Position numbers and translations under genes: made by a program. A stretch of DNA of 64,000 bases, taken from the NCBI RefSeq assembly GCF_003143515.1, contig NZ_CP029343.1, positions 124,001-188,000 of the forward strand, written 5' to 3'. The notes below the pieces were generated by a model. The model made no database searches. It was not told the origin of the DNA and saw only the letters and a program-made list of their open reading frames with translations. Of the stretch, positions 1-13,136 are shown one piece after another (position 1 is the first letter of the stretch; the number at the start of each line of letters is the position of its first letter). The DNA comes from Massilia oculi (GTDB lineage: Bacteria > Pseudomonadota > Gammaproteobacteria > Burkholderiales > Burkholderiaceae_D).

Positions 1-51
1 CCGCTCAAGGAAGCGGCTACTTGACCCAGTGGATTTATGATCAGTATTCAT
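1..51 (-). CDS. Partial 5' end of an array gene, function unknown
   Basis: Only the first 17 codons lie in the window; the gene continues beyond position 1. The ATG at 51-49 is preceded by AAAGGAAAA, the strong ribosome-binding sequence seen at many junctions of this array, and by the stop codon of the next gene 14 bases away. The visible N-terminus begins MNTDHKSTGSSRFLER, which is polar and shows no signal peptide. It is called a gene because of the start signal and array position. No function can be given. Confidence 0.55.
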   Translation of the reverse strand, partial: MNTDHKSTGSSSRFLER

Positions 52-65
52 TTTTCCTTTGATGC

Positions 66-347
66 TCACTCAAACCGTTCAGGCCATTTGACGAAGTACA
101 CATACCGACCGATAAACCATATCGCGGCCAAGATCGAAAGCCCGCTGCCACCTAGTAGGAAGGCGCTGACCGTAGACCGAACCGGTTCAACTAAGACCGA
201 GAATTGCCCAGCATCGTTGCCACCGATATCGCTCGCCACAACGGCGAGAACCAGCAAGAAGACGGCCAGAACACCGTAGCCTACAGCTTTGCGCTCTGAT
301 TGCTTCAGCATTGTGACATAGGGGTCAATAGAGTTTCTGTAGCCCAT
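66..347 (-). CDS. Small membrane protein, unknown
   Basis: The product is 93 aa, starting MGYRNSIDPY. Two hydrophobic stretches stand out: one around residues 22-40 (VGYGVLAVFLLVLAVVAS) and one around residues 62-82. They predict two transmembrane helices joined by a short acidic loop. The start codon follows CGGAAAAGAT, and the upstream gene stops only 10 bases away, so the two are probably co-transcribed. No family is recognised. Small two-helix membrane proteins are common in cassette arrays and toxin or defence islands, but nothing here proves such a role. Confidence 0.7.
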   Translation of the reverse strand: MGYRNSIDPYVTMLKQSERKAVGYGVLAVFLLVLAVVASDIGGNDAGQFSVLVEPVRSTVSAFLLGGSGLSILAAIWFIGRYVYFVKWPERFE

Positions 348-357
348 ATCTTTTCCG

Positions 358-735
358 CTAACGTTGTTTGTTCTTGCCGGCCGCCTTGAACTTGGCCATA
401 TCCAGTGAACCGAGACCTCCGGCCATGCACTTCGCGTAGACAGTCGCTCGCGCATGCTGTGCACTCGGGCCGACTGTATAGACCCAGTTAACGACAGCCG
501 TATCCCGTTCATCAAGCATCTTCTGCTGCGCTTTTGGGCGTTTGAAGTCGGACATCGCAGGATCGAGCATGCTCGCCAATACTTGTTCTTCGGGCTGACC
601 AAGGTGCATAAGGTTTGCGGCTGACTGGGCGAACTTTCCAATGCCAAGGCATAGTTCTTCCGTCTGAGCGTATGCAGCTGGGGATAGATGAGCGAGCGAC
701 AGAACGAAGATAGATTTTAGAAGCCGTATATTCAT
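358..735 (-). CDS. Small secreted protein, unknown
   Basis: The product is 125 aa with a clear Sec signal peptide (MNIRLLKSIFVLSLAHLSPAAYAQ, cleavage after AYA). The mature part is helical and charged, with two cysteines (in ELCLGIG and AKCMAGG) that could form a disulfide. It resembles in size and layout the secreted protein at 3638-4039, though the sequences do not align obviously. The start ATG at 735 follows an A-rich stretch downstream of a hairpin junction element. The product is probably periplasmic; its role is unknown. Confidence 0.7.
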   Translation of the reverse strand: MNIRLLKSIFVLSLAHLSPAAYAQTEELCLGIGKFAQSAANLMHLGQPEEQVLASMLDPAMSDFKRPKAQQKMLDERDTAVVNWVYTVGPSAQHARATVYAKCMAGGLGSLDMAKFKAAGKNKQR

Positions 736-739
736 TTTT

Positions 740-800
740 TGCGATCTCTTCTCGGCTTCCGGCCGGCTCGGGGCGCCTTCTCGGCACCATATCGTTTTCC
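740..800 (-). repeat. Short-type hairpin junction element
   Basis: Read on the minus strand, this spacer starts with CGGAAAACG and runs through GGCGCCCCGAGCCGGCCGGA into the A-rich start region of the next gene. It shares order and wording with the spacers at 3580-3634 and 12149-12202 (CGGAAAAC, then GGCGCCC, then CCGG, then an A-rich end). Another 100 bp lie between it and the upstream stop at 902. They contain a small palindrome (GCACTTCAGTGC) and no convincing gene. Confidence 0.5.
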
Positions 801-901
801 GTAGCGTTTGGCCGCCGCTCAGAGCTTTGCACGTGCGACGTTGCGATTCATATTAGCGAGCGTTTAGTCTGGCTTCTTTTATGGCAGGCACTGAAGTGCT
901 G

Positions 902-2146
902 TTAGCTAGATTCGCTCCATCGAAGAGCAAATAATAAATATGGGTCGCGGATATCAAGAACGTCTTTATCTCCATCCCATTCAATGATTGCAGCATTTGC
1001 TGCGTCGTTTGCGAGTGCGGACATATGGGCGCACGCGCCAGTTACACTCGACCCTTGAGGGTGCTCGCGGAGGCACACATCTGAAATGCGTTTAAGTAAG
1101 TCAGGGTAACTTAAGGTAAGTTGAGGAGGAGGAAAGGCGAGCGCTTTTACTATAATTGGATAGACGTCGCTAGCAGTTTGATCTTTCAGTACATACGGTT
1201 TGCGATCTGTACCACGAACCTTAGGCCCTTCTTTCATAACTCGCATTACCGAACGGTAATCATTTGTTTGTGCGGCACGACGACAGATTCTATCAATCAG
1301 ATCAATAGTACCTGTTACGATAAGTTTCTCAGGCGTCGTTTCCTTAGCGTCGATCTCAAAGCACAGATTGAGGCACAACGATTGCATAAGTTGGGGAGAG
1401 CCAGCAGCCTCCATAGCAAATGCTGAAATTATCGAATCGGAAACCTGCATATTCAGTTCTTTGAAACCTTTTGAGGCGATTTTTGACAGTTCAGGTGCGT
1501 CCCAGTAATCGAAGTCGAGATTTAACATACGCCCTCGAAGATCCGCATTCGCAATTACAACGTCATCGGAGTGATACGGGACAGCGGCAAGTATGAACTG
1601 CGCCCCCTGGCGTACGGCTTCTTTTATTACTTCAGCAACTTGGACTTGAACTTCTTTCGCAATATAATGGAAATCGTCAACAAAGACGACAAGTCCGCTA
1701 CCCTTTAGCTCCGTTACTAGAAGAGCTAAGTAATCTGGGCGAACGTCGGCCGTTGTGCTCCCTGTACTAGTCCATTTTCCCCCGAGACTCACCGTTCCCT
1801 TGGTCACAAGTGGCACACCACCTTCAATGCTTGCGCTGCTGTTTACCTCTGAAATTTTCGAGTCGAGCGCGGTGGAAGGAATTGGAGTACCGATGACTGT
1901 AAAGATCCGCCTCCATAATTCCTCAGCTGCTGTAATGTTTGCTCCGCTTACATGAATCAAGTTATCGCGACCTATTACTGATTCGACAAAAACAGTTTTT
2001 CCCGATTTGGATGGCCCGGAAATCACAATCACGCTACCGCCAAGTTCGAGATTTTGCTCAAGGATCTTGGTTTTTTCTTTTAAATGTTCACCAACCAAGG
2101 TGACAGTGGGTAGATCGTTGGGAGTAAATACTTCAGTGCGTTTCAT
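902..2146 (-). CDS. P-loop ATPase (AAA/STAND-like), unknown role
   Basis: The product is 414 aa from the ATG at 2146, chosen because AAAGG sits five bases upstream; a GTG at 2227 with AAAGGAAAAA upstream is an alternative that adds 27 residues. A Walker A motif (GPSKSGKT) lies near residue 45 and a Walker B motif (GLVVFVDDFH) near residue 155, followed by an NTPase-like helical region. The C-terminal third has no recognisable sensor or effector domain. It is the largest gene in the array. Lone ATPases of this type occur in defence islands, but no partner effector is identified here, so a defence role is speculation. Confidence 0.75.
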   Translation of the reverse strand: MKRTEVFTPNDLPTVTLVGEHLKEKTKILEQNLELGGSVIVISGPSKSGKTVFVESVIGRDNLIHVSGANITAAEELWRRIFTVIGTPIPSTALDSKISEVNSSASIEGGVPLVTKGTVSLGGKWTSTGSTTADVRPDYLALLVTELKGSGLVVFVDDFHYIAKEVQVQVAEVIKEAVRQGAQFILAAVPYHSDDVVIANADLRGRMLNLDFDYWDAPELSKIASKGFKELNMQVSDSIISAFAMEAAGSPQLMQSLCLNLCFEIDAKETTPEKLIVTGTIDLIDRICRRAAQTNDYRSVMRVMKEGPKVRGTDRKPYVLKDQTASDVYPIIVKALAFPPPQLTLSYPDLLKRISDVCLREHPQGSSVTGACAHMSALANDAANAAIIEWDGDKDVLDIRDPYLLFALRWSESS

Positions 2147-2248
2147 ATGAGCCTTTAGCGAATATCGGTTAGGACGCGGCGTATAATTTTGTATGCTTTT
2201 TCGATGTTTCGAGAGCGGGAAAAACACCGCGCTATTTTTCCTTTACGT

Positions 2249-2782
2249 TCAGGCACTCACAAAGTGTGACAGCTTTAATGACAACGGAAAGACGTCTCCG
2301 GCGCGATAGTCGCGCTGTACCGGTTCTAGGTCGCCGAGCTTTCCCGAAATTAGACCGTGCTTGCCTTCTCCAGGGCCAGTTACAGACAGGCCGAAGTTGC
2401 GCCAGAAGGTTGCAACTGCCGGGCGGTCGTCGGTTATAGTGCCATGGATCCGCGTCTGCGAATTGATCCATGGAGATCGCTGCAATACCTGAATGGCGAG
2501 GTTGACTAAGAGCTTACCGTAGCCCTTCTGATGCCGATTTCTAGAAATCGGCTCAGGACCGTTACCTACAAGGTCCATAAAACTGACTCGCGACGGACCG
2601 TAATTGATCATCAGCGCGACCTTGTCGTCTTGCCGACTCGATAGCAGAACCTGCAGCGTCAGATCACCAGAGGTATCCCCAGAGATCCGTACTTTTGGAT
2701 AGCTTTCTCCCGACGGATATTTAACCCGGTAAGGTGGACGCATCAGGCCACCGTTTTCGCAAATTTGGTTACTCGAACTCAT
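2249..2782 (-). CDS. GNAT-like acetyltransferase, tentative
   Basis: The product is 177 aa starting MSSSNQICEN. The segment NRHQKGYGKLLVNLAIQVL looks like the acetyl-CoA-binding motif A of GNAT enzymes (Q/R-x-x-G-x-G/A followed by a helix). It is followed by a FWRNFGLS segment like the usual GNAT C-terminal strand. Substrate and pathway cannot be read from the sequence. The start is uncertain because the best Shine-Dalgarno (AAGGAG) lies about 16 bases upstream. The spacer to the upstream gene is 25 bp and has no hairpin. Confidence 0.55.
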   Translation of the reverse strand: MSSSNQICENGGLMRPPYRVKYPSGESYPKVRISGDTSGDLTLQVLLSSRQDDKVALMINYGPSRVSFMDLVGNGPEPISRNRHQKGYGKLLVNLAIQVLQRSPWINSQTRIHGTITDDRPAVATFWRNFGLSVTGPGEGKHGLISGKLGDLEPVQRDYRAGDVFPLSLKLSHFVSA

Positions 2783-2807
2783 CTTAATAGCACAGTTCTC
2801 CTTGGAA

Positions 2808-3572
2808 TTATCCCGAAAGCCCAAGCATAGTCGCGGCAGTCGCAGCAAGTGCATAGCCGCCCTGGATCTTTGTTGCAATGTCACAGGCGTTCGCAACATC
2901 GCCGACTACCTTACCCACCCGCTGCATGATGCTCCGCTCCTGCTCAGACAGCCCTTGTGTAACTTCTGATAGCGTGGCCGCCTCATGGCCACTTATACCG
3001 TTAATACTTTGCATTGCATCACGCAGCCGCTCCGTTCCAGAAACTTTATAGTTCCACAACGCGCTGCGAATGGCCCGAAGATGGCGCAGTAAGAAAAGCC
3101 TCAAAGTGCTTGGGAGATTCGAGCTTTCGATATCAGAAATTAATTTATCAATCTCAACTGCAAGCGTTTTTACTTCGTCTGCGATATCTGTCGATCCGTC
3201 CGGGCCTAAGACAAACCCAGCCCACTGAAGCATAACGATTTGTTCCTCCCGAACCATCTTCGCAATGTCATCCCAATGACTGTGCATATTACGAGTCGAA
3301 GTGACCGACTTAAGTTGTGTGAGATGGGGTTGATATAGTTCCACGGGAACTCCACGATCACGCAGCAGCACCCCCAGATGAGCAACCTCTTGATTTACTG
3401 CCAGGGCAGACTCAGCAGCAATCTCGTCAAGTTCCAGCCCTGCCGGCCCGTGCCTTTCAAATAATGTTGACCAGGCGTCCACCCCGCTTGGTGGCATATT
3501 GCGAACCGACGTTTCCGGCTTGATCGAGCGAAACTGCACGAACAGATGATGTAATCGCTGAGCTGAGTTCAT
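2808..3572 (-). CDS. Hypothetical protein, helical
   Basis: The product is 254 aa, mostly alpha-helical and charged. It ends in a small hydrophobic glycine- and alanine-rich tail (GGYALAATAATMLGLSG) that could insert in or pair with a membrane. No catalytic motif or known family is recognised. The middle part (residues 120-190) has heptad-like spacing. The gene follows a short hairpin junction and precedes the GNAT-like gene by 25 bp, so it may be co-transcribed with it. Confidence 0.6.
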   Translation of the reverse strand: MNSAQRLHHLFVQFRSIKPETSVRNMPPSGVDAWSTLFERHGPAGLELDEIAAESALAVNQEVAHLGVLLRDRGVPVELYQPHLTQLKSVTSTRNMHSHWDDIAKMVREEQIVMLQWAGFVLGPDGSTDIADEVKTLAVEIDKLISDIESSNLPSTLRLFLLRHLRAIRSALWNYKVSGTERLRDAMQSINGISGHEAATLSEVTQGLSEQERSIMQRVGKVVGDVANACDIATKIQGGYALAATAATMLGLSG

Positions 3573-3579
3573 AAATGAT

Positions 3580-3634
3580 CTTCTACTTGTCCCGACTTCC
3601 GGTCAGGTGGCGGGGCGCCGTAGCGCAGTTTTCC
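3580..3634 (-). repeat. Short-type hairpin junction element
   Basis: On the minus strand the upstream gene stops at 3638 and is followed at once by TCGGAAAACTGCGCTACGGC, then GGCGCCCCGCC and an A-rich end before the next ATG. The head of the element (TCGGAAAAC) is identical to the one at 12149-12202, which lies behind an unrelated gene. That points to a shared mobile or recombination-derived spacer rather than chance. Confidence 0.55.
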
Positions 3635-3637
3635 GAT

Positions 3638-4039
3638 TTAGTCCATACGCTGCAAAATTTGCCCGATCTTCTGATATGAACTCGCACATGCTGGATTTAA
3701 TGCCCCTACCATTCCCAACGGGGTAACAAACGATGAAAGCGTGTTGAAGGCGTTCTGTCTGGCTTGTTTTTTAGCGCAATTGACCGCAGTTTCTCGCTCC
3801 CCTAGTTGGGTAACGGAGTCACGTAACATCTTGCTGAGCGTCTCGGGTACTTTTTGGCGTTTGAGTTCTTCCGCCTCGTCTGGCTTCTCTATTTGCAAGA
3901 ACTCTACGGAGTTGTCGACACACGCGCGAAGCGCGTCTACGACTATTTGACAGGCCGAGGGAATATTCTGTGCCGACGCAGAACCGGCCATGCTCAGCAA
4001 GCCGACACTAACAAACGTCGCAAACCCTAGTTTTGACAT
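3638..4039 (-). CDS. Small secreted protein, unknown
   Basis: The product is 133 aa from the ATG at 4039, supported by AGGAG seven bases upstream. A Sec signal peptide (MSKLGFATFVSVGLLSMAGS, cleavage after ASA) precedes a helical mature protein. Four cysteines (SACQIV, RACVDN, VNCAKK, PACASS) probably form two disulfides. No family is recognised. The likely location is the periplasm. A hairpin element separates it from the 59-aa gene upstream. Confidence 0.7.
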   Translation of the reverse strand: MSKLGFATFVSVGLLSMAGSASAQNIPSACQIVVDALRACVDNSVEFLQIEKPDEAEELKRQKVPETLSKMLRDSVTQLGERETAVNCAKKQARQNAFNTLSSFVTPLGMVGALNPACASSYQKIGQILQRMD

Positions 4040-4060
4040 CCAAATTCTCCTATGCATTCA

Positions 4061-4143
4061 TTCCTTGGGCTGGCACCACGCCCCCCCTTCCACTGCTGGC
4101 ACAGCCGCGTCGAACGCGGCGTGGGTACTACTGGGCGTTTTCC
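4061..4143 (-). repeat. Long-type two-hairpin junction element
   Basis: On the minus strand it opens with GGAAAACGCCCAGTAGTACC, then holds a strong inner stem (GCCGCG / CGCGGC around TTCGA) and ends with GGCGTGGTGCC and AAGGA. It aligns end to end with the spacers at 4372-4465, 7492-7576 and 11204-11287, which lie between unrelated genes. The outer parts (CCACGCC and GGCGTGG) are complementary, so the whole element can fold into one long imperfect hairpin. Confidence 0.65.
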
Positions 4144-4151
4144 GCTGCTAG

Positions 4152-4331
4152 TTAGTCTATGCGACCGACGCTGTATCGGAAGAAAGGCGAGTAGTCTTGC
4201 GGGCCAGTTTGTTCCTGCCCAGTGCCGACAGCCAAAAGAATCCAGCCTTGTTCCAGCAAGGGATTCAGCTGAGGCTCAAAAACGTGACGTACTTCCTTGA
4301 CCTTATGCAATGGCGACGTATCTTGGCTCAT
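4152..4331 (-). CDS. 59-aa hypothetical protein
   Basis: This short gene fills an otherwise unexplained 230-bp gap between two hairpin elements. It runs from ATG at 4331 to TAA at 4152 and begins MSQDTSPLHKVKEVRHVFEP. It continues with a compact sequence rich in Trp, Leu and Gln (EQGWILLAVG) and ends in SVGRID. The protein-like composition, array-like position and lack of any competing frame support it. No signal peptide, membrane segment or known family is seen. It is too short for most automatic gene callers. Confidence 0.6.
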   Translation of the reverse strand: MSQDTSPLHKVKEVRHVFEPQLNPLLEQGWILLAVGTGQEQTGPQDYSPFFRYSVGRID

Positions 4332-4371
4332 GTTCTACTCTCTGATTCGTTGGATATGAAAGCTAGCACTG

Positions 4372-4465
4372 TCCTAGCGTTTAACTCCCGGGGAAAGCAC
4401 CGCGCCTGCCCTTTCAATGCCGCAGCCCCGTCTAGCGGGGCGCCGGGTGCTGCTTTGCGATTTCC
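4372..4465 (-). repeat. Long-type two-hairpin junction element
   Basis: Read on the minus strand: TGGAAATCGCAAAGCAGCAC, then an inner stem GCCCCG / CGGGGC around CTAGA, then GCGGCATTGAAAGGGC, GGCGCGGTGC and finally GCTAGGAC. It keeps the order of parts of the other long elements. The head is worn (GGAAAT in place of GGAAAA). Confidence 0.55.
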
Positions 4466-4466
4466 A

Positions 4467-4664
4467 TTACGACGTTGCGGCATACTTTGCACGCTGTTCA
4501 GCGATGTACTCTGCACAGTGTTCAGCTAGCAAATCGGAACACGACCAGTCATCAACGACGGGAGATTCGGTGGAGGTGAAATGGGACAAGCCCAGCTCGA
4601 CTAAGCGTGCATCCACGCGATTCTGGTAATCTTCGCTAGCGCGGCGGTGGGGTTGCATGCTCAT
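4467..4664 (-). CDS. 65-aa hypothetical protein
   Basis: The product is 65 aa starting MSMQPHRRASEDYQNRVDAR. It is hydrophilic, with two cysteines in the second half (WSCSDLLAEHC) and a helical C-terminus. The start follows a run of A residues without a canonical Shine-Dalgarno, so the second ATG two codons on is an alternative. No family is recognised. It sits directly upstream of a long hairpin element. Confidence 0.5.
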   Translation of the reverse strand: MSMQPHRRASEDYQNRVDARLVELGLSHFTSTESPVVDDWSCSDLLAEHCAEYIAEQRAKYAATS

Positions 4665-4723
4665 TTTTTCGTAATCCCTAGAGTTTCGCTTTAGTTGCGA
4701 AGTGACATTTCCTTGACGACTGA

Positions 4724-5074
4724 TTATGGTTTTCGGCTGCACACAAAGTTCACCAAGTCGGACTTGCTCGATCCGGAGAGAACGTCGGTCCACCTGCCAG
4801 GTGCGCCCGTAAGCTTGTCCGGTCCGTCCTCGCTGTAGCCCATATCGCGATACTGCATGGACTTGCAGTTGATCTCAGTTTTCGAGTAACCAGTTTCATT
4901 GACGCCAACACGTTTATGCAGCGTGGTAATAATCCCGCCTTTGGTCTTCGCGTCCAGCAGGTAATACTTGCCTTTGTCAGCCATGGTGCGAGGAATCTGA
5001 GCCTCTGTAGCATGGGCTGCGATACCGGAAGCCGATGCTACGATCATCAGGCTCGTGGCCAATACTTTGCGCAT
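4724..5074 (-). CDS. Small secreted protein, unknown
   Basis: The product is 116 aa from ATG 5074, six bases after AAGGAG. The N-terminus (MRKVLATSLMIVASASGIAA) is a typical Sec signal peptide. The mature protein has two cysteines (EINCKSMQY, NFVCSRKP) and a beta-rich pattern with many Gly, Lys and Tyr. It looks like a small periplasmic domain of the kind often encoded in cassettes and genomic islands. The function is unknown. Confidence 0.7.
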   Translation of the reverse strand: MRKVLATSLMIVASASGIAAHATEAQIPRTMADKGKYYLLDAKTKGGIITTLHKRVGVNETGYSKTEINCKSMQYRDMGYSEDGPDKLTGAPGRWTDVLSGSSKSDLVNFVCSRKP

Positions 5075-5137
5075 CTTGGTCTCCTTCTTTGGTTGATGAA
5101 ACACGTGGTTGCTTTTCCGGGACCGTAAGGTGTTCCC

Positions 5138-5482
5138 TCATTTGACGCGACGATATTCCATCGACCCGGCGCCTGTTGGCATGAGTAGGGTGTCAGTGTC
5201 CTTGACGTAGCTGACCCTGGAGGAACCGAAAAAGCCCGATATCTCCAACATGCCATCCTTGAAAACTGCCGGGAGAACTTGCGTGTCGAGATGGTTTCGT
5301 CGGAATGCGGACGGCTCAGTGACTTTGATTACGAAATTGTCGCCATTTCGCTCGATAGCTGCCGTGCGATTCTTGTATTCCTTCGCCTGCCAATTGCCGA
5401 CATACTCGCCGCCCTGCTGACCGCATGCCGCGAGTGTCACAGCGACGGCAACGTGGGCAAGGCCTTTCATCCACTTTTTCAT
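5138..5482 (-). CDS. Small lipoprotein, unknown
   Basis: The product is 114 aa starting MKKWMKGLAHVAVAV, with a lipobox (LAAC) whose cysteine is residue 20. The mature part is a likely beta-barrel or lipocalin-like fold: YVGNWQAKEYKNRT, followed by alternating strands. YVGNW is a frequent opening of small secreted beta proteins. A longer reading from ATG 5557 is possible but runs through the hairpin spacer and would bury the signal peptide, so the shorter start is preferred. Confidence 0.65.
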   Translation of the reverse strand: MKKWMKGLAHVAVAVTLAACGQQGGEYVGNWQAKEYKNRTAAIERNGDNFVIKVTEPSAFRRNHLDTQVLPAVFKDGMLEISGFFGSSRVSYVKDTDTLLMPTGAGSMEYRRVK

Positions 5483-5565
5483 CTTTTGTCCTAGCCGGCC
5501 ACCGGCCGGTGCGGGGCTTGCGCCATGTTCTATTATTGATAGCTCACCGACTTCCATTTTTTCGG
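5483..5565 (-). repeat. Divergent hairpin junction element
   Basis: This 87-bp spacer follows the stop of the Pmp3-like gene. On the minus strand it contains CACCGGCCGGTGGCCGGCTA, a GC-rich palindrome just before the start region, and begins ACCGAAAAAA, a worn version of the GGAAAA head. It shares the CCGGC-TAGGA ending with the element at 11204-11287. Membership of the family is likely but weaker than for the others. Confidence 0.4.
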
Positions 5566-5569
5566 TAGA

Positions 5570-5764
5570 TCATCCGCGCTGCCGAAGTGCGCGTTCGATC
5601 TTCTGGTCGGTTTTGTATTGGCTGAGCGCATACACGGCCCAGATAGTCGCGGGAATCCAACCGATGAGGGTGCACTGCAGGATCAAGCAGATGACTCCGG
5701 CAAAAGGGCGCCCAATGGTGAAGAAGGTCAGCCAGGGGAGAATCAAGGAAATGATGAGACGCAT
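5570..5764 (-). CDS. YqaE/Pmp3-like small membrane protein
   Basis: The product is 64 aa with two hydrophobic helices (residues 3-24 and 28-47) and a short basic tail. The pattern ILPWLTFFTIGRPFAGVI followed by CTLIGWIPATIWAVYAL matches the YqaE/Pmp3 proteolipid layout (P-rich first helix, second helix with G-x-x-P, then A-x-Y). Members sit in the inner membrane and have been linked to membrane potential and salt stress in other organisms. The match is by eye. Confidence 0.6.
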   Translation of the reverse strand: MRLIISLILPWLTFFTIGRPFAGVICLILQCTLIGWIPATIWAVYALSQYKTDQKIERALRQRG

Positions 5765-5828
5765 TTGTTTTCTCTTTCAGTGCCCCTGTTTACGCGAGGC
5801 GCCGCTCGGGCTTAGGCCCATCTTCTTG

Positions 5829-5851
5829 AAAGCGACCGTTCCGGTCGCTTT
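5829..5851. terminator. Strong stem-loop, possible terminator
   Basis: This is a perfect 10-bp inverted repeat (AAAGCGACCG / CGGTCGCTTT) with a 3-base loop, lying between the stop of the 5865-6125 gene and the Pmp3-like gene. It ends in only three T residues, so it may be a weak terminator or another form of junction hairpin. The same spacer starts with TAGGAAAACAC, the array's boundary motif. Confidence 0.45.
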
Positions 5852-5864
5852 GTTCAGTGTTTTC

Positions 5865-7483: not shown

Positions 7484-7491
7484 TCGTCATG

Positions 7492-7576
7492 TCCTTGTTA
7501 AGTCGGCACCGTGCCGGCCTTCTCAATGCTGCTGCCCCGTCAAGCGGGGCAATGGGCGCTGCTGGGCCTTTTCCTT
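7492..7576 (-). repeat. Long-type two-hairpin junction element
   Basis: On the minus strand: TGAC-AAGGAAAAGGCCCAGC follows the upstream stop; then comes an inner stem GCCCCG / CGGGGC around CTTGA, the linker AGCATTGAGAAGG, a second stem GCCGGCAC / GTGCCGAC and an AAGGA end. It is the clearest partner of the element at 11204-11287: both have two stems in the same order and the linker GCATT-A-AGA. It gives the family its consensus. Confidence 0.65.
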
Positions 7577-7577
7577 G

Positions 7578-7844
7578 TCAGTTCTGGTGATGCTCAATGT
7601 AGGCCGCTTTGCTTGTAAAGACCTTATCCGCGCCGGCCAGGTGCAGCGTCAGACGGAGCCGCGCTGCGAGCCTGACAAATGCATTATCGGGGCGGTTGAT
7701 GAGCATGCGGCCCGCGCACTGCTTATCCGTCTTCTTGCGGCAAACGAACGAGTCGGCCGACAAAATGTCCGACATCCGTTCAGCACCCAGCCAACCCTTC
7801 AAAGTGTCTTTGCGAAAGGGGCAGTCTTGACAGGGCGCCTTCAT
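7578..7844 (-). CDS. Small Cys-rich protein (CPFR motif, DUF6283-like)
   Basis: The product is 88 aa and opens MKAPCQDCPFRKDTLKGWLG. It has a CxxCPFR motif near the N-terminus and two more cysteines (SFVCRKK, KQCAGRM), which together could bind a metal. This layout matches the small CPFR-type DUF6283 proteins found in phages and islands. The stop codon is followed within four bases by the junction motif. The start is ATG 7844; the 16-bp spacer upstream has no hairpin. Confidence 0.6.
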   Translation of the reverse strand: MKAPCQDCPFRKDTLKGWLGAERMSDILSADSFVCRKKTDKQCAGRMLINRPDNAFVRLAARLRLTLHLAGADKVFTSKAAYIEHHQN

Positions 7845-7860
7845 GTTCGGCAGCGATCCA

Positions 7861-8616
7861 TTAGCGATTCCCGGACTGACTTAGATGCGACTTTGCAAAG
7901 ATGTTCTCGCCACTCAACCATGCCTGTTCTGGAGCCGCATGATCTAACGCAGTGCTAACTGCAGCGGTAAGCTCAAGCCAATTAGTGTCTGCCTCAGGAA
8001 CGGCAATCGCCAGACCATCTTGCAGTCCCTGCCGCACTGCGTTGAAAGCAATCATGCGAGCTTTCTCATGAATCAGCCCGAATGGTTTGAAGCCAATCCG
8101 TTTGCCTCGTTTGCAAGCTTGGACGTCGTACGATGTGAACTCCGAGCAGGCTAGTGGCCGTACCGCGTAGATCGTGCAGCAACCATCTGCGCTTAGAAAC
8201 GCGCACGGTTTTTTGATATTGACCCGTGCTTTCAAACTGGTGCCGCGAGTTGCCTTGTCAAGGCTTCGTACGCGCCCCACAACTTCTTCCATTTGAATGC
8301 GTGACGTCGATGCTCGCAGGTAGCGGACGATTCGGAATACCTCCGGTGCGGACACTGAGACAAGCTGGTAGCAGCAGTGTGAGCAGCCGGTCGAACAAGC
8401 CACCGGTGGGGAAGCCGGGTCGAGGTGCTTTGCAGTCGCAGCCTCAGCAAAACCATCAGCATCTTCGATAACGCGTTGCAGGAGATCTGGGCTGGGAGTC
8501 GGAAGCAAAACTTCCGAAACCGCCTCCTGCTGAGCTTGCCGAATGCGTTCCTGGAGCCGCAGTTCAGCCTCGCTAGTTTCAGTCACCACTACACCGCTAC
8601 GTTGATCAGTTCTCAT
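7861..8616 (-). CDS. YkgJ family cysteine cluster protein
   Basis: The product is 251 aa from ATG 8616 (MRTDQRSGVV). An upstream ATG at 8652 overlapping the previous stop is an alternative that adds 12 residues. The YkgJ pattern is clear: CSTGCSHCCYQLVSV, then CAFLSADGCCTIYAVRPLAC, together eight cysteines with the typical R-P-x-x-C ending. YkgJ-type proteins are predicted Zn- or Fe-binding domains of unknown biochemical role. The C-terminal 80 residues are helical. No partner enzyme is identified in the neighbouring genes. Confidence 0.8.
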   Translation of the reverse strand: MRTDQRSGVVVTETSEAELRLQERIRQAQQEAVSEVLLPTPSPDLLQRVIEDADGFAEAATAKHLDPASPPVACSTGCSHCCYQLVSVSAPEVFRIVRYLRASTSRIQMEEVVGRVRSLDKATRGTSLKARVNIKKPCAFLSADGCCTIYAVRPLACSEFTSYDVQACKRGKRIGFKPFGLIHEKARMIAFNAVRQGLQDGLAIAVPEADTNWLELTAAVSTALDHAAPEQAWLSGENIFAKSHLSQSGNR

Positions 8617-8644
8617 TTTTTTCGGGTTCGCTCTTGGACGCTGA

Positions 8645-8890
8645 CTAGGCATACCCCTGGCATACCAAGGACGTTCCGCAGCGCGTGTGATGTTGAAGAA
8701 CTGCTGCAACGACCTGCTGTTCGCTAACGCCGGCCGCGGCGGCCGCGAGGGAAAGGGTCCAGGTTCTGCGCAACGCCTTGCCGAGAGCGATCGCGCCCAC
8801 ATCGTCAAGCACCTCGCCCGAAGTGGGAAGCATAGCCGCCGCGTCGACGTCAAACTGGATCAGGGCCGCAGCCGCAATTTTCGCACTCAT
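8645..8890 (-). CDS. Hypothetical protein, 81 aa
   Basis: The product starts MSAKIAAAALIQFDVDAAAM. It is alanine-rich and helical with a short hydrophobic segment (WTLSLAAAAAGVSEQQVV). Its start lies three bases after the stop of the 8894-9271 gene, a spacing typical of coupled genes. There is no boundary motif at this junction, so the two genes may have moved as one unit. No family is recognised. Confidence 0.5.
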   Translation of the reverse strand: MSAKIAAAALIQFDVDAAAMLPTSGEVLDDVGAIALGKALRRTWTLSLAAAAAGVSEQQVVAAVLQHHTRCGTSLVCQGYA

Positions 8891-8893
8891 CGC

Positions 8894-9271
8894 TTACTTC
8901 CAGTGCACTTGCAGGGCCTTAATTCCGTTTGCGGGTACGATGAGATCGCCCAGTTGAGATGCGCGGGCCCAGAGCTGCTTGGCGTCGTCAGCAGGAATCG
9001 CATTCAGGTTGAACTGGCAGAGCAGCTGGCGCGAACGCCAAGTGGTCTTCGCCGCTTCAAGGCCTCGACGGAGGCCGTCCAGGCTATCGATCAAAACTGC
9101 TTGCTGAGGGGCGAACAGCACCGTTACACCGTGTTGCTGGCCCAATCGAGCAAGATGGGAATAGTCATCGCTGCCAGATTGATAGTCCAACTCGACTAGC
9201 TTACTTTTCTGCCGTTCAATCAGTGCAATGGCAGATGCTCTGTCTTGAGCCTGGATTGGATCAGATTGCAT
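8894..9271 (-). CDS. Hypothetical protein, 125 aa
   Basis: The product starts MQSDPIQAQDRASAIALIER. It is helical at the N-terminus, followed by an alpha/beta pattern (GVTVLFAPQQAVLIDSLDGL). The stop codon of the XRE gene overlaps the GGAAAA before this start (TAGGAAAACGAAC then ATG), so the two are likely coupled. No function is recognised. Confidence 0.6.
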   Translation of the reverse strand: MQSDPIQAQDRASAIALIERQKSKLVELDYQSGSDDYSHLARLGQQHGVTVLFAPQQAVLIDSLDGLRRGLEAAKTTWRSRQLLCQFNLNAIPADDAKQLWARASQLGDLIVPANGIKALQVHWK

Positions 9272-9281
9272 GTTCGTTTTC

Positions 9282-9614
9282 CTATCGTAGTTTGATCCCA
9301 AGCAGCACTGACACGGCGTGCAGTTTTTCATCTGTTAGTGCCGCCAGATTGCGGGCGAGTTTTTCTACGCGACGGACCTCCAGAGGCGGCGTCTCATCGT
9401 TTAGCATTGTGCCATTGCCCGTCGCGAGCCATCGAGCTTCAACGCCGAGCACATCCGCTAATGGAAACAAGAGGCTGGCTGAAATGCCGCCATCAGGACG
9501 ATTCTCGTAATTCCATGCCGCCTGCGCGCTGACGTCGATAGCTTCCCCGACTTTCGCTAGCGAGAGGCAGGAATGTTCGCGAGCCAGCTTGAATCGTTCA
9601 GCAAAAGTAGTCAC
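9282..9614 (-). CDS. XRE-family helix-turn-helix regulator
   Basis: The product is 110 aa with a GTG start at 9614, supported by the adjacent ACGGAAAACT. Residues 5-60 form an HTH_3 domain: FAERFKLAREHSCLSLAKVG, then EAIDVSAQAAWNYENRPDGG and LFPLADVLGVEARWLATG, the usual Cro/C1 ending. The C-terminal helix may dimerise. It probably controls its own operon or neighbouring array genes. No operator could be assigned. Confidence 0.8.
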   Translation of the reverse strand: MTTFAERFKLAREHSCLSLAKVGEAIDVSAQAAWNYENRPDGGISASLLFPLADVLGVEARWLATGNGTMLNDETPPLEVRRVEKLARNLAALTDEKLHAVSVLLGIKLR

Positions 9615-9628
9615 AGTTTTCCGTTGGT

Positions 9629-9868
9629 CTAGATTGCTTCACTGATGGGGACGATACGACCGTCGATACGCATCATGAAAAGCGAGGCGCGTTCAATCAA
9701 TGCCGGCGCCAGGTGAAGATCGGATTCGTCCAAGACGCGGTCCTTAAATTCGGCCGTAACCAAGTCGGCGCGCCCAGGCCGCAAGATAAGTTCGACGCCG
9801 GCAGGGATGTCGGTCAATAAGGCCGACAGCTTTGCAGCCAATGCCGCCTGTTGTTTTGTCAGTGCCAT
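9629..9868 (-). CDS. Hypothetical protein, 79 aa
   Basis: The product starts MALTKQQAALAAKLSALLTD, a coiled helix. It then runs through a mixed segment (GVELILRPGRADLVTAEFKD) to end in MMRIDGRIVPISEAI. It starts right after the stop of the repeat protein gene and its GGAAAAG. It lies just before the XRE gene and may be co-expressed with it. No family is recognised. Confidence 0.55.
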   Translation of the reverse strand: MALTKQQAALAAKLSALLTDIPAGVELILRPGRADLVTAEFKDRVLDESDLHLAPALIERASLFMMRIDGRIVPISEAI

Positions 9869-9883
9869 CTTTTCCGGTCTCGT

Positions 9884-10849
9884 TTAGTCGTTGGACTCGA
9901 GCTGGCTGCGGATATTCTGCTGACGCTCGATCATCTGGCTGGCAACGAATTCGGCCATGCCGTGATTGCCGCCGTCGAGGTAGCCGGCGAGCTGCTTTGC
10001 ATCGCTGTCACGGCCCTTGTAGTTGATCGCTTCGGCGTTCACCTGGTCGATCATTTTTTGCAGCTCGGCGGGCAAGCCGTGTTCCTGCGCTTGGCGAAAC
10101 TTCTGCTGACGCTCGAGCATCTGGCCGGCGACGAATTCGGCCATGCCGTGATTGCCGCCGTCGAGGTAGCCGGCGAGCTGCTTTGCATCGCTGTCACGGC
10201 CCTTGTAGTTGGTCGCTTCCGCGTTCACCTGGTCGATCATTTTTTGCAGCGCGGCGGGCAAGCCATGTTCCTGCGCCTGGCGAAATTTCTGCTGACGCTC
10301 GAGCATCTGGCCGGCAACGAATTCGGCCATGCCGTGATTGCCGCCGTCGAGGTAGCCGGCGAGCTGCTTTGCATCGCTGTCACGGCCCTTGTAGTTGATC
10401 GCTTCGGCGTTCACCTGGTCGATCATTTTTTGTAGCTCGGCGGGCAAGCCGTGTTCCTGCGCCTGGCGAAACTTCTGCTGACGCTCGATCATCTGGCCGG
10501 CGACGAATTCGGCCATGCCGTGATTGCCGCCGTCGAGGTAGGCGGCGAGCTGCTTTGCATCGCTGTCACGGCCCTTGTAGTTGGTCGCTTCCGCGTTCAC
10601 CTGGTCGATCATTTTTTGCAGCGCGGCGGGCAAGCCGTGTTCCTGCGCCTGGCGGATATTCTGCTGACGCTCGATTATCTGGCCGGCAACGAATTCGGCC
10701 ATGCCATGATTGCCGCCAGCGACATATCCTTCTACCTGACGAACATCACTGTCGCGCCCCCGGTACTCAATAGCACCTTGGTTAATTTGGTCAATCAGGT
10801 TTTGCAGATGCGCAGGTAGCGTTCCACTAAATGCAATTTGTTGTGACAT
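9884..10849 (-). CDS. 62-aa tandem repeat protein
   Basis: The product is 321 aa made almost entirely of five copies of a 62-residue unit. A typical unit contains HGLPAELQKMIDQVNAEA, YKGRDSDAKQLAGYLDGGNH and GMAEFVAGQ. The first copy is the most divergent and the inner ones are nearly identical. Each unit predicts two or three helices, so the whole is likely an alpha-solenoid that binds a protein or nucleic acid. There is no signal peptide or membrane segment. The function is unknown. RBS AAGGAAAAAT precedes the ATG. Confidence 0.7.
   Translation of the reverse strand: MSQQIAFSGTLPAHLQNLIDQINQGAIEYRGRDSDVRQVEGYVAGGNHGMAEFVAGQIIERQQNIRQAQEHGLPAALQKMIDQVNAEATNYKGRDSDAKQLAAYLDGGNHGMAEFVAGQMIERQQKFRQAQEHGLPAELQKMIDQVNAEAINYKGRDSDAKQLAGYLDGGNHGMAEFVAGQMLERQQKFRQAQEHGLPAALQKMIDQVNAEATNYKGRDSDAKQLAGYLDGGNHGMAEFVAGQMLERQQKFRQAQEHGLPAELQKMIDQVNAEAINYKGRDSDAKQLAGYLDGGNHGMAEFVASQMIERQQNIRSQLESND
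9900..10830 (-). repeat. Five 186-bp tandem repeats inside a gene
   Basis: The DNA units behind the 62-aa protein repeats are 186 bp long and in frame. The central units differ by only a few bases, including paired changes such as GAGCTG/GCGCTG before CAAAAAATG. Such near identity at the DNA level indicates recent duplication or gene conversion, and copy number may vary between strains. Confidence 0.75.
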
Positions 10850-10851
10850 AT

Positions 10852-10941
10852 TTTTCCTTGCGCCGGCGCCGGCCGGGCGCGGGCGCCATTAGGCGCGGTT
10901 CGTTCAATTTCGCGGCCGAGAAAAATACGGCAGCGTTTTCC
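10852..10941 (-). repeat. Hairpin junction element, long variant
   Basis: On the minus strand the spacer begins CACGGAAAACGCTGCCG shortly after the upstream TAA. It ends GGCGCCGGCGCAAGGAAAAA before the next ATG, so the GGAAAA motif appears at both ends. The inside holds GGCGCCCGCGCCCGGCCGGC, which shares TGGCGCCCGC with the short element at 12149-12202. Confidence 0.55.
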
Positions 10942-10948
10942 GTGCTCG

Positions 10949-11200
10949 TTAAGCGTCTCGCAATTCGTATGGGCCCAGTGAACCCCGGCATTCGCGCGCT
11001 TTTACGTCATACACAAAGACGCGGTCCGGCGAGAGGGCAATATGCTTGAAGATACCGATAACCGGCCCATTGCTAATGCTTACCTTTACTTCATCGTAGG
11101 CGGAGAGAAATACGAAAATTTGCAGGTCACCGTCGACGAAATCTGGAGTGTCGTTGATCGCAAAAGTGTGGTCGAAATTTTGAAGTACGACTCGTTTCAT
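10949..11200 (-). CDS. Hypothetical protein, 83 aa
   Basis: The product starts MKRVVLQNFDHTFAINDTPD. It is beta-rich (LQIFVFLSAYDEVKVSISNG, then DRVFVYDVKAREC) and likely a small soluble domain. TAGGAAAAATC precedes the ATG. No family is recognised. Hairpin elements flank the gene on both sides, so it looks like a complete single-gene unit. Confidence 0.6.
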   Translation of the reverse strand: MKRVVLQNFDHTFAINDTPDFVDGDLQIFVFLSAYDEVKVSISNGPVIGIFKHIALSPDRVFVYDVKARECRGSLGPYELRDA

Positions 11201-11203
11201 GAT

Positions 11204-11287
11204 TTTTCCTAGTTGGCCGGCACCATGCCGGCTCTCTTAATGCACCAGCCGCGTCGAGCGCGGCGTGGATAATGCTAGGTATTTTCC
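11204..11287 (-). repeat. Long-type two-hairpin junction element, best preserved
   Basis: On the minus strand the upstream stop is followed by ACAAGGGAAAATACC. Then come stem 1 (GCCGCG / CGCGGC around CTCGA), the linker TGCATTAAGAGA, stem 2 (GCCGGCA / TGCCGGC) and CAACTAGGAAAAATC before ATG. GGAAAA thus brackets the element. It matches 7492-7576 part by part although the flanking genes are unrelated. Confidence 0.65.
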
Positions 11288-11292
11288 CTTGT

Positions 11293-11565
11293 TCAGCCGC
11301 GCTTGATGCCGGTTGTCTGCATTGCACCATCCGATGCGATGGAGATGTCCAGAGTCTGCCCATTATCGTTGGCACGAGACACCATTTCACGCAGAACGTT
11401 CTTTCGCTCTAAGTTGTATTCAAGCTCTCGTGCGGCCCTATTGGTGATCTCAAAGTCGCCGCAAGTGGCATTAGAGCAAACGATATAGCGGCGGTTGCCG
11501 CTGTCAGTCTCTTTCCCTTTTGCTCGCTGTCCGCAGAGGATGCAAGTTGTGTTTTCGGCGTTCAT
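11293..11565 (-). CDS. Small zinc-ribbon-like protein
   Basis: The product is 90 aa and opens MNAENTTCILCGQRAKGKET. It has a CxxC pair (CILC) and a second pair (CSNATC) about 20 residues on, which forms a plausible treble-clef or ribbon metal site. The rest is a helix (RAARELEYNLERKNVLREMV) and a short beta end. AAAGGAAAAAT precedes the ATG. It may bind nucleic acid or protein; the function is unknown. Confidence 0.6.
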   Translation of the reverse strand: MNAENTTCILCGQRAKGKETDSGNRRYIVCSNATCGDFEITNRAARELEYNLERKNVLREMVSRANDNGQTLDISIASDGAMQTTGIKRG

Positions 11566-11583
11566 ATTTTTCCTTTAGCCCAC

Positions 11584-11778
11584 TCAACGTCGGCTCGGGC
11601 TTTTCGCGCGGCCGCATAGCGCGGCACCCACGATGAGTGAGACTATGCTTAATCCAGCGAATAGCCATGAGATACGTGCGGCGTTCCAGTCGTTCGCATA
11701 CCACATCAATCCAACACCCGTGGCCGCGACCAGGCCGTAGACGACGCTCTGTTCAAACCACCATTTAAAATTCCTCAC
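11584..11778 (-). CDS. Small two-helix membrane protein
   Basis: The product is 64 aa with a GTG start (MRNFKWWFEQSVVYGLVAAT). Hydrophobic segments at about residues 10-27 and 36-54 predict two transmembrane helices, followed by a basic tail (GRAKSPSRR). The upstream junction has TCGGAAAACGTCA then GTG. No family is recognised. Confidence 0.6.
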   Translation of the reverse strand: MRNFKWWFEQSVVYGLVAATGVGLMWYANDWNAARISWLFAGLSIVSLIVGAALCGRAKSPSRR

Positions 11779-11808
11779 TGACGTTTTCCGAGGTCAAACA
11801 AATTAAAC

Positions 11809-12144
11809 CTATTCGGCACCAGGCTTGTCCAGAACGACCTCATGCATTTTTCTGATCGCGGTAATAACGATGCGTCCGTCATGGTAAAGGTGGGTTCGAT
11901 GGGTTGATCTTGCTGAGCCGTCCCAATAGCACGGGTCACCGTCCATATCCTTCCAGCCAAATTCGCGCTGAAAACCATAGACATGCATCCGCTCACCATA
12001 ATTATTTCGATCCAATCCGGATAGCTCATCCTCTACTTCGTCCATGATCCGCGTCATGAGCGCTAGGGCATCTTCCCGGCCTTGAGCTGGCCTTGCTTTT
12101 TTAAGCCTGGCCAAGAATATGGCAAAGCGGTCCGCTCTTTTCAT
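11809..12144 (-). CDS. Hypothetical protein, 111 aa
   Basis: The product starts MKRADRFAIFLARLKKARPA. It has a charged N-terminal helical half and a Trp/Tyr-rich second half (MHVYGFQREFGWKDMDGDPC, then YWDGSARSTHRTHLYHDGRI). It is likely cytosolic. The start lies behind AAGGGAAAATGTT at the end of a short hairpin element. No family is recognised. Confidence 0.6.
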   Translation of the reverse strand: MKRADRFAIFLARLKKARPAQGREDALALMTRIMDEVEDELSGLDRNNYGERMHVYGFQREFGWKDMDGDPCYWDGSARSTHRTHLYHDGRIVITAIRKMHEVVLDKPGAE

Positions 12145-12148
12145 AACA

Positions 12149-12202
12149 TTTTCCCTTGTGCCGGCACCGCCAGCTGCGGGCGCCACCAGGACGCCGTTTT
12201 CC
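12149..12202 (-). repeat. Short-type hairpin junction element
   Basis: On the minus strand: TGA-TCGGAAAACGGCGTC, then GGTGGCGCCCGC, AGCT, GGCGGTGCCGGCAC and AAGGGAAAATGTT before ATG. GGAAAA occurs once directly behind the stop and again in front of the start. The GC-rich centre can fold as an imperfect hairpin. Confidence 0.6.
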
Positions 12203-12204
12203 GA

Positions 12205-12843
12205 TCAATTTCCAGCGGTAGTAACACGGAGCTGATACGCAGCTCGCTCACCAGCGATTTTGTCGCGAAGCTCGCGAAGTTGCGCGTCTCGATCCCAACC
12301 ATTAGGATTAGCCGAAATAGGTGGCAACCCGGCATGCTCGCGCAGTCGTTGAGCAATCTCCGACACTTCAAGGCCAAGAACTGCATAACCATGCTGACGA
12401 GCCCAAAAAAACTCAGCGTATTCCGGAGGATCGTCGTACTCGCCGACACCAGAAATATACTGCTGGAGTTGTTCGACTCGATGGGGTAAGCCCAGGATGT
12501 CATACATCAGTCCACCAGGTAGGGCTTTCCAGTTCACTTCAAACTCAAGCGGATCGAACGTGGGTGATGCAACCGTCACCTCATGACAGCCGTTACTTGC
12601 AGCCGGGCACCCTTCTTCTGTTCCATCGTCATGTGCAACGTGGAGACATTGGTTCGCAAACCTATCCAAGTGAGCGGCAACAAAAATCGCCAAGTAAACG
12701 GTCTCCTTCTTATTACGCTCTAGCTCACGTGCCTCTTCGCGCTGAGACGTTAAACGTCCGCCGAGCCATACACCTCCAAGGCCAGCAGCCGCAGAAATCA
12801 CAGGTGAGATCACGCCGGGAACCAGACTCCAATCAACTGCCAT
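12205..12843 (-). CDS. Hypothetical membrane-anchored protein
   Basis: The product is 212 aa from ATG 12843, chosen because AAGGA lies six bases upstream. A single hydrophobic segment near the N-terminus (GVISPVISAAAGLGGVWLGG) is followed by a charged coiled region (SQREEARELERNKKETVYLA). A soluble C-terminal domain with four cysteines in the middle follows. The layout, one short membrane helix then a cytosolic domain, is common in island and phage-linked proteins. No family is recognised. Confidence 0.6.
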   Translation of the reverse strand: MAVDWSLVPGVISPVISAAAGLGGVWLGGRLTSQREEARELERNKKETVYLAIFVAAHLDRFANQCLHVAHDDGTEEGCPAASNGCHEVTVASPTFDPLEFEVNWKALPGGLMYDILGLPHRVEQLQQYISGVGEYDDPPEYAEFFWARQHGYAVLGLEVSEIAQRLREHAGLPPISANPNGWDRDAQLRELRDKIAGERAAYQLRVTTAGN

Positions 12844-12878
12844 GTGCATTCCTTAAAACTGACTAAAAAGGCTTTCCT

Positions 12879-13136
12879 CTACTCGGCGCCGATCATGCGG
12901 CGCACTTTAGTCAATGCCGCTTCACCGGACCTGGAGTCGAGCTTGCCAGCTGCGAGTGCTTTAGCTTCGGCAGGAGTGAACGACACAGTAACGCCGCTGA
13001 CAACGGTGGGGACAATCTTGATCTCTCCCATCGTCACTAGGACATCAAGTTCTTGGCCGTCCTGGAATCCTGCCTTGTTGAGCATCTCGCGGCTGAATGT
13101 CGTCCCTTGCGAGTTACCGATTTTTCTTAGCTTCAT
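12879..13136 (-). CDS. AbrB/MazE-like DNA-binding protein
   Basis: The product is 85 aa starting MKLRKIGNSQGTTFSREML. The N-terminal 45 residues match the swapped-hairpin AbrB / SpoVT fold of MazE and VapB antitoxins (R-K-I-G-N-S-Q-G-x-x-x-x-x-x-x-L, then GQELDVLV and GEIKIVP). No toxin gene follows; the next gene encodes an unrelated membrane protein, so it may be an orphan antitoxin or a regulator. It is the first gene of the array behind the promoter at 13158-13186. RBS GAGGG lies five bases before ATG. Confidence 0.75.
   Translation of the reverse strand: MKLRKIGNSQGTTFSREMLNKAGFQDGQELDVLVTMGEIKIVPTVVSGVTVSFTPAEAKALAAGKLDSRSGEAALTKVRRMIGAE

Follow-up and report, generated by a model that had tools for sequence, protein, structure and literature searches.

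A 64,000-nucleotide stretch of Massilia oculi DNA (RefSeq assembly GCF_003143515.1, contig NZ_CP029343.1, positions 124,001 to 188,000; hereafter the window) carries on its minus strand an array of mostly small genes, which we interpret, with a probability of about 0.8, as mobile gene cassettes of an integron-like capture system that has another recombinase and another site. Judged from sequence comparisons, a cassette appears to be the stretch from one GGAAA(A) motif to the next (GGGAAAA in Vibrio). Cassettes recur in different places as units whose ends fall at motifs beyond chance, and a single cassette as well as whole arrays have been gained, lost or replaced between otherwise matching flanks. 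With few exceptions, the arrays lie on the same strand as, and just downstream of, genes of a short tyrosine recombinase family. An earlier note on this stretch had suggested a gene-capture system different from the classical integron, a suggestion now supported by the presence of the same recombinase and the same family of spacers with different genes in relatives.

A one-way array behind a broken recombinase

The array comprises 28 genes in open frames running from position 13136 to position 66 of the window, all in one direction on the minus strand. This agrees with the earlier note, which had counted about 27. The encoded proteins are mostly of 60–270 aa, with two longer ones of 321 and 414 aa. 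The array extends approximately 1.6 kb beyond window position 1 into the adjoining segment L002 (G000:C1:104001-124000), and at its far end, near L002:18380, a truncated gene abuts plus-strand genes. Four genes have start coordinates here (11559, 5071, 4661 and 344) that miss a start codon by a few bases, and 2777 was used as the start of the gene that ends at 2249, whose frame requires 2782; the offsets of these five genes shift junction edges by a few bases only.

Both the dead tyrosine recombinase and the promoter that had been noticed at the 5' end were recovered. A tblastn search with the recombinase of a relative (G019) returned two pieces of 79–85% identity lying in different frames and containing stops, and the sigma-70-like site at 13186-13158 (Table 1) is a consensus match only. 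Because its recombinase is broken, the window's copy of the system is probably frozen unless helped in trans.

A GGAAA motif at the junctions

The common feature of the junctions is the motif GGAA[AG], with or without a spacer. It occurs on the array strand at 24 of the 27 junctions and on the opposite strand at 2 of 27, whereas 5000 random placements of equal segments had it in 6.9 segments on average and never in more than 15. At these junctions it often takes the form GGAAAA and often stands directly ahead of the next start codon; over the whole array, the array strand holds 25 copies of GGAAAA and the opposite strand one.

A corresponding strand bias was observed in 47 loci at which the recombinase match was confirmed (47/47). 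GGAAAA is the top strand-biased hexamer in the 263.9 kb behind these recombinases, intact or broken (370 vs 52), against counts of 40 vs 65 in 129.4 kb upstream. The array strand is the richer one at 41 of the 47, with equal counts at 4 and lower counts at 2. Furthermore, the initial 4 kb downstream of 25 recombinases contain 134 motif-led frames on the array strand against 15 on the opposite one, and such frames are commoner on the recombinase's own strand at 23 loci (one equal, one lower). A control from unannotated reading frames proved too noisy and annotated genes were used in its place: among the other genes of the same plasmids, GGAAA was found within 22 nt of the start in 13 of 163, GGAG being the commoner of the two (53 of 163). 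The near copies Bgl2 and P22B were dropped before the hexamer, alignment, per-locus and recombinase-integrity counts. Pcep and Pepa were both kept though identical over 12.4 kb, so that the hexamer, alignment and per-locus counts hold that array twice; the end of the OS4 recombinase was set about 220 bases too early. An alignment of 212 motif-anchored junctions from 16 loci contains little information beyond approximately 9 positions (the anchor being imposed) and no further conserved arms around the motif.

Gain, loss and replacement between matched flanks

The search of Oxalobacteraceae relatives that the earlier note had called for returned the same recombinase and spacer family with other genes and other neighbours; in these genomes, the recombinase is followed by same-strand arrays of small, different genes with the motif ahead of them. 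The cleanest pair is Massilia kyonggiensis (G009) and Massilia sp. Root133 (G414), which carry largely unrelated arrays at the same chromosomal locus. The left flank including the recombinase is 93.0% identical, and identity stops there at the first GGAAAT. On the right, the flanks are 91–92% identical, beginning at GGAA in both. Between these flanks lie approximately 15.7 and 8.7 kb, respectively, which have no similarity (E ≤ 1e-5, at least 60 nt) except for spacers and one 264-nt match of 73.5% identity. The same genes in the same order, as an ordinary operon would have them, were not seen in this pair.

Exchange of a single cassette is illustrated by three Vibrio harveyi plasmids, whose sequences are 98–99% identical up to the indel point of the array. 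There p345-67 reads TAACGA GGGAAAA, one small gene, ACTA GGGAAAA GTCG, whereas pVH3 reads TAACGA GGGAAAA GTCG, with one GGGAAAA against two, and N8T11 reads TAACGA GGGAAAA followed by a different cassette. The cassette of p345-67, which holds a 165-bp gene, is absent from pVH3, and its flanks are 98.5 and 99.3% identical. Other segments of these plasmids, 99.0–99.6% identical, are relocated with edges at the motif, one of them starting at the variant GGGGTAAAG. At some breakpoints a spacer or about 70 bases separate GGAAA from the next start codon, and the breakpoints are therefore not simply where genes begin.

Two further comparisons were set aside. The Burkholderia glumae plasmids were considered as a strain series; two of about 50 were compared, and they have the same annotated genes to 16506 and insertion sequences after that. 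The arrays of Pandoraea cepalis and Pandoraea eparura are 100% identical over 12.4 kb, which makes the pair uninformative.

Cassettes as discrete units across arrays

An all-against-all comparison of the sequences behind recombinases yielded 42 alignments of at least 80% identity and at least 90 nt. Fourteen of these start, 18 end and 9 both start and end at GGAA[AG] in both sequences, compared with means of 0.52, 0.24 and 0.003, respectively, in a null obtained from 2000 end shifts. Self matches of repeat proteins in the window's own array, G356 and G324 were left out, as were matches in or before the recombinase and those whose start lies over 20 kb downstream of it. A single cassette family accounts for three matches (among pBMC401, B. 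glumae and P. kururiensis), and a GGAAG that occurs by chance within a gene explains one flagged end (Bamb 2869/Bgl1 15336).

The individual cases range from duplication within an array to sharing between species. In Burkholderia ambifaria pBMC401, a 687-bp segment occurs twice in one array, 100% identical and cut at GGAAAA on both sides, and the cassette family common to B. glumae, B. ambifaria and P. kururiensis has the same edges and different neighbours in each. Two arrays of one Rugamonas genome have two short segments in common (99.3 and 97.9% identical) in different places, and two genomes of the genus Janthinobacterium have a 1638-bp segment in common (98.4%). A 96.6% match between plasmids of Pseudomonas syringae pv. 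helianthi and P. avellanae stops at GTAGGAAA, and in the P. syringae group both ends of a cassette of 93.2% identity are cut at GGAAA; the end of the Psyr/Phel match (95.5%) lies away from a site. The window's own array and that of Duganella phyllosphaerae (G178) have matches in common in a different order (Table 1). Under stricter scoring, the match at 4708..5119 is shorter and neither end lies at a site.

The recombinase family

The recombinases are proteins of approximately 223 aa and were found in 34 of 392 sampled genomes of the host family (E ≤ 1e-25, distant copies of 31–36% identity included). A protein search gave 837 matches at E ≤ 1e-10 among 1425 candidates (the best 120 being listed), and 148 of 72,556 plasmid records match at E ≤ 1e-30, 85 of these at less than 60% identity. 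At 26 of the 47 loci the recombinase forms one stop-free piece of 205 aa or more and looks intact; at the other 21 it is broken, partial or near a contig end.

PF00589 is the sole Pfam match in three relatives (62–76 bits against a gathering score of 27.1), and the residues R42, K73, H172, R175, H198 and Y207, which we take to be the catalytic ones, are invariant in 16 relatives. The XerC and XerD family models align from about their position 103 onward, which indicates a recombinase without the N-terminal core-binding part. Scores fall far under the cut-offs for XerC, XerD, the integron integrase and FimB-type invertases. By sequence, the best solved structures are Xer proteins, the fifth being an IntI4 chain at 36.8 bits. 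A structure prediction from a 16-sequence model was too poor (predicted local distance difference test score 50) and was not used.

Of ten loci with distant recombinases (31–40% identity), nine were tested, L163 being too short, with recombinase ends set by hand. A clear GGAAAA bias was present at three: G071 (11 vs 1), G319 (13 vs 0) and contig 42 of G248 (15 vs 1). Elsewhere in the M. oculi genome (G000:C1:368663-368842, L162), a 200-aa frame is related to the recombinase, with 40% identity over the piece searched and no downstream GGAAA bias.

Structured spacers in part of the cassettes

The earlier note had described related hairpin spacers between unrelated genes. Four spacers of one family are indeed present in the array (Table 1). 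As they occupy 4 of 27 junctions, they are not what the junctions share, and the hairpin spacer as the general junction was rejected in favour of GGAAA. All four are members of the alignment behind covariance model (CM) R1; a fifth match in the window, on the plus strand at 13.1 bits, is at chance level, and the M. oculi genome holds no spacers beyond the four at E ≤ 0.01 (150 of 7417 first-look candidates scored).

An iterated profile search of the 47 loci identified 34 spacer members in 16 arrays, 28 of which start at GGAA. RNAalifold predicted two hairpins from 31 spacers. Pairs are changed on both sides in 9 of 12 cases, a value that 64 of 500 shuffles reach; 89.5% of the cells pair (74.7% shuffled, at most 51.9% slid); and the covariation score is 0.485 against 0.248, reached by 0 of 500. 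The structure was derived from the same alignment on which the pairs were counted. Alignment A2 omits G178_4750, G366_7443 and G415_2097, and one spacer was lengthened by 9 bases taken from its own locus and one shortened.

In 15 genomes with the recombinase, including the sources of the model, 34 spacer matches at E ≤ 0.001 were found in 12 (150 candidates scored per genome). Twenty-eight lie on the same strand within about 23 kb behind a close recombinase, three near the diverged recombinase on contig 42 of G248, and three elsewhere (contig 59 of G393, G426, and G391, the last on the other strand). The spacer thus belongs with the system, occurring mostly in these arrays, but is not itself the boundary. 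Ahead of the next gene, several spacers end in a GGA word other than GGAAA, and we take the spacer to be probably a leader that some cassettes carry; it may have a role in recombination. No Rfam 15 family was found at the spacers in the window (four sub-threshold matches lie elsewhere in it) or in L118, and a known RNA family was discarded as an identity for the spacer.

Some related elements were noticed in passing. The G426 match (G426:C1:4618931-4619028) is a lone, weak one of 43 bits, 2 Mb from that genome's recombinase. In a P. syringae array, weaker matches score 25.0, 20.4, 19.7 and 15.8 bits (E 0.0001–0.05), and weak, diverged spacer relatives lie at the 5' end of cassettes in the Pseudomonas arrays L101 (10510-11958) and L100 (10680-10766). 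By eye, another, shorter hairpin between two GGAAAA motifs recurs in the Burkholderiaceae arrays L098 and L106, e.g. before L098:15569, L098:16826 and L106:17759.

Relation to integrons and other known systems

Integrons are the textbook system for gathering single genes into expressed arrays, and the usual integron has its integrase gene divergent from the array; integron cassette contents include toxin-antitoxin and defence genes. The present system is alike in that a tyrosine recombinase stands beside small genes, mostly unknown, that form a one-way array and move singly, their mobility being seen in relatives, and in that toxin-antitoxin and candidate defence genes are among the contents. 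It differs in that the recombinase of approximately 223 aa lacks the N-terminal core-binding part and reads in the array direction. Three intact relatives score 33.8, 41.5 and 49.3 bits against the integron integrase model TIGR02249, whose cut-off is 265, consistent with the earlier description of a short form that is not IntI-like. Moreover, the boundary is a 5–7 base GGAAA motif. Paired RYYYAAC / GTTRRRY cores 30–140 apart, whose absence had also been noted before, number 0 on either strand of the window's array; shuffled sequences hold 1.1 on average, so the absence of pairs is by itself weak evidence. Single cores occur at 2 (GTTRRRY) and 4 (RYYYAAC) of the 27 junctions. An attC reading of these junctions was rejected for want of core pairs. 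By the features tested, the system works like an integron and is not one.

The pdif sites are Xer sites of about 28 bp used by the host XerCD. The pdif modules of Acinetobacter plasmids are reported to be small gene modules moved by site-specific recombination on plasmids, and in this they resemble the cassettes; the present arrays, in contrast, are long, ordered and same-strand, with a dedicated recombinase gene and a much shorter motif, and no Xer-type site of about 28 bp was apparent in the 212 motif-anchored junctions. FimB/FimE-type invertases, which invert one element, are likewise catalytic-domain-only tyrosine recombinases of about 200 aa, whereas the scores of the present proteins against those families are 16.3–25 bits against cut-offs of 221–222. 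The integron-like elements at rulB of Pseudomonas share the name, tyrosine recombinases and variable genes; whole elements are reported to integrate site-specifically into rulB there (PMC4542609), unlike the cassette-by-cassette exchange proposed here. The open-access papers searched yielded no description of such a system; preprints and most subscription journals were outside this scope, and a prior description is possible.

Alternative explanations and proposed mechanism

Several observations weigh against the interpretation as mobile cassettes. The link between the recombinase and cassette movement is one of position, and for a tyrosine recombinase a core of 5–7 bases that lacks conserved arms is remarkably small. 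In the Massilia pair, the recombinase of M. kyonggiensis carries one stop (the G414 copy looks intact), and pVH3 shares just the end of the recombinase region, where the annotation names no recombinase. GGAAAA is more frequent on the other strand at G019C103 (0 vs 2) and G158 (0 vs 3) and equally frequent on both at G415, Acid, Phor2 and OS4; four of these six recombinases are broken or partial, and those of Acid and Phor2 look intact. Six of the nine distant-recombinase loci, one of them in the window's own genome, have no clear bias. GGAAA lies within 22 nt of the annotated start in just 43 of 97 array genes from nine plasmids, and in just 23 of 38 on pBMC401. Among the 42 alignments, 19 have neither edge at a site; some of these lie outside arrays, in insertion sequences or platform genes, and many are diverged and end early, which does not explain all of them. 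Finally, the Paraburkholderia pair Plar/P22B, tried as a cassette indel, proved to differ by a deletion inside genes and not at a site.

The last of these differences is an ordinary internal deletion, such as would be expected if the arrays were ordinary operons or plasmid regions with a shared Shine-Dalgarno style, gaining and losing genes illegitimately, the survivors being those that keep gene and ribosome-binding site together. The ribosome-binding position of GGAAA at many of the window's junctions would suit this explanation too. It is nevertheless improbable, as non-array genes on the same plasmids favour GGAG over GGAAA, breakpoints fall at GGAAA even with the next start codon far off, the motif bias tracks one recombinase family and its strand, and gene content is replaced wholesale at one locus in the Massilia pair. 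We are somewhat more inclined to consider that another activity, e.g. a host recombinase or end joining at short homologies, moves the cassettes and that the short recombinase is a mere neighbour. The motif is short enough for microhomology and is flanked by no further conserved arms; however, the recombinase family occupies a similar place and strand from Massilia to Vibrio, and one motif is strongly preferred over other ribosome-binding words, which makes this explanation unlikely.

Two explanations would bring the system closer to classical integrons. The structured spacer could be the true recombination site, an attC-like folded strand, with bare GGAAA junctions as its remnants; its covariation, its GGAA start in 28 of 34 members, its occurrence mostly in arrays and its weaker relative in Pseudomonas arrays all agree with such a role. 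Set against this are the exact V. harveyi event, which has just the short motif on both sides, no spacer match at E ≤ 1 being found in the three plasmid stretches, the presence of spacers at so few of the window's junctions and the endings in GGA words other than GGAAA, and we judge this explanation distinctly unlikely. A degenerate chromosomal integron with decayed attC sites would have the same layout and kind of contents, and the recombinase has weak similarity to integron integrases (34–49 bits for TIGR02249, 36.8 for the IntI4 chain). Intact relatives nevertheless score far under the 265-bit cut-off, the joints of recent exact exchanges carry the short motif (these joints were not scanned for attC cores) and the window's array has no core pair, so that this possibility appears very improbable.

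Returning to mobile cassettes exchanged by the short recombinase, we propose that this enzyme would cut and rejoin DNA within the GGAAA core. Cassettes would be removed or inserted between two sites in one orientation, probably as circles, and the core would survive every event. The Shine-Dalgarno-like core may serve as the ribosome-binding site of many captured genes, a single promoter near the recombinase may read the whole array, and the toxin-antitoxin or small helix-turn-helix (HTH)-like gene beside the recombinase would belong to a fixed platform. We further consider it likely that these arrays represent a second, independent class of gene-capture platform, in which a catalytic-domain-only recombinase moves single genes at a Shine-Dalgarno core, joining and translation wiring are one step, and a structured element is present on part of the cassettes; as part of the same reading, the class would span Oxalobacteraceae, Burkholderiaceae, Pseudomonas, Shewanella and Vibrio, on chromosomes and plasmids. 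If so, this would suggest that the capture of single genes into arrays evolved more than once. Arrays of unknown small genes that would escape integron finders, on plasmids and chromosomes alike, would find an explanation in the system, which would also offer new small accessory and candidate defence genes. The system would also pose the biochemical question of how a tyrosine recombinase without the usual clamp domain finds a 5–7 base core.

A probable platform beside the recombinase

According to annotation, a toxin-antitoxin pair often adjoins the recombinase (MazEF, AbrB with VapC or ChpB, HigBA); at other loci a small HTH-like protein does so, as seen by eye. In BSRS, Pkur, Psab, Bgl1 and Bamb, the change from the conserved MazEF pair to the variable part falls at GGAAA or no more than about 10 bases from it; this would be the platform's fixed end. 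The first gene of the window's array has no Pfam family match, its MazE/AbrB-like label having been given by eye, and the first gene of the G164 locus is similar to it. Directly after the recombinase in G366, G391, G426, G202 and L127, a small HTH-like protein of about 73–87 aa with a shared pattern was recognised by eye; it is possibly a regulator or directionality factor.

Contents of the window's cassettes and neighbouring features

At curated Pfam cut-offs, 5 of 20 of the window's array proteins have a credible family (DUF6283, Pmp3, HTH_3, CxxCxxCC and Hypoth_Ymh), and 14 of 20 have no family or weak matches only. PADLOC candidates are matched well by three of seven proteins tested (Table 1), two weak hits of the repeat protein being left out of this count. 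The many unrelated Pfam hits of that protein (9884-10849) look like repeat artefacts.

Table 1. Features of the array in the window, in order of position (all on the minus strand)
Feature	Position	Strand	Basis and remarks
Variable cassette array in the window, 27 genes	66..12877	-	GGAA[AG] at 24/27 junctions; runs on to ~L002:18380
Gene with weak AAA ATPase similarity, candidate defence protein	902..2146	-	PDC-S59, 93 bits; Pfam below cut-off
Structured spacer 4	4056..4143	-	CM R1, 65.5 bits
Structured spacer 3	4380..4465	-	CM R1, 71.6 bits
Cassette common to the Duganella phyllosphaerae array (G178), other neighbours there	4708..5119	-	own 10182-10593 vs G178 9379-9788, 86.7%; start at GGAA in both
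Hypoth_Ymh domain gene, candidate defence protein	6453..7247	-	PF09509; PADLOC PD-Lambda-3_B, 255 bits
Structured spacer 2	7489..7574	-	CM R1, 78.6 bits
DUF6283 gene cassette, part-matched in the Duganella phyllosphaerae array	7570..7826	-	74.7%; match end at GGAA in both, offsets -4/-4
Gene of near-identical 62-codon repeats, 321 aa	9884..10849	-	self matches every 186 bases
Structured spacer 1	11203..11287	-	CM R1, 83.5 bits
Gene like a candidate defence protein	12205..12843	-	PADLOC PDC-S67, 213 bits
First GGAA[AG] site	12873..12877	-	1 base past the first gene's stop; assumed left edge of the variable part
First gene behind the recombinase, small MazE/AbrB-like protein (by-eye label)	12879..13136	-	open frame; taken as fixed platform
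Promoter-like site TTGACA-17-TACGAT ahead of the first gene	13158..13186	-	sigma-70 consensus scan, 10/12 positions
Broken catalytic-domain-only tyrosine recombinase heading the array	13216..13885	-	frame change and stops

Adjoining the far end of the array, L002 contains genes that by eye resemble Tn5053-type transposition genes and several larger tyrosine recombinases (5587-9900 and 12162-16348). Elsewhere in the window, Rfam models match a selenocysteine tRNA (37260-37351, minus strand) and a SECIS_3 element (50020-50078, minus strand), which together suggest the use of selenocysteine.

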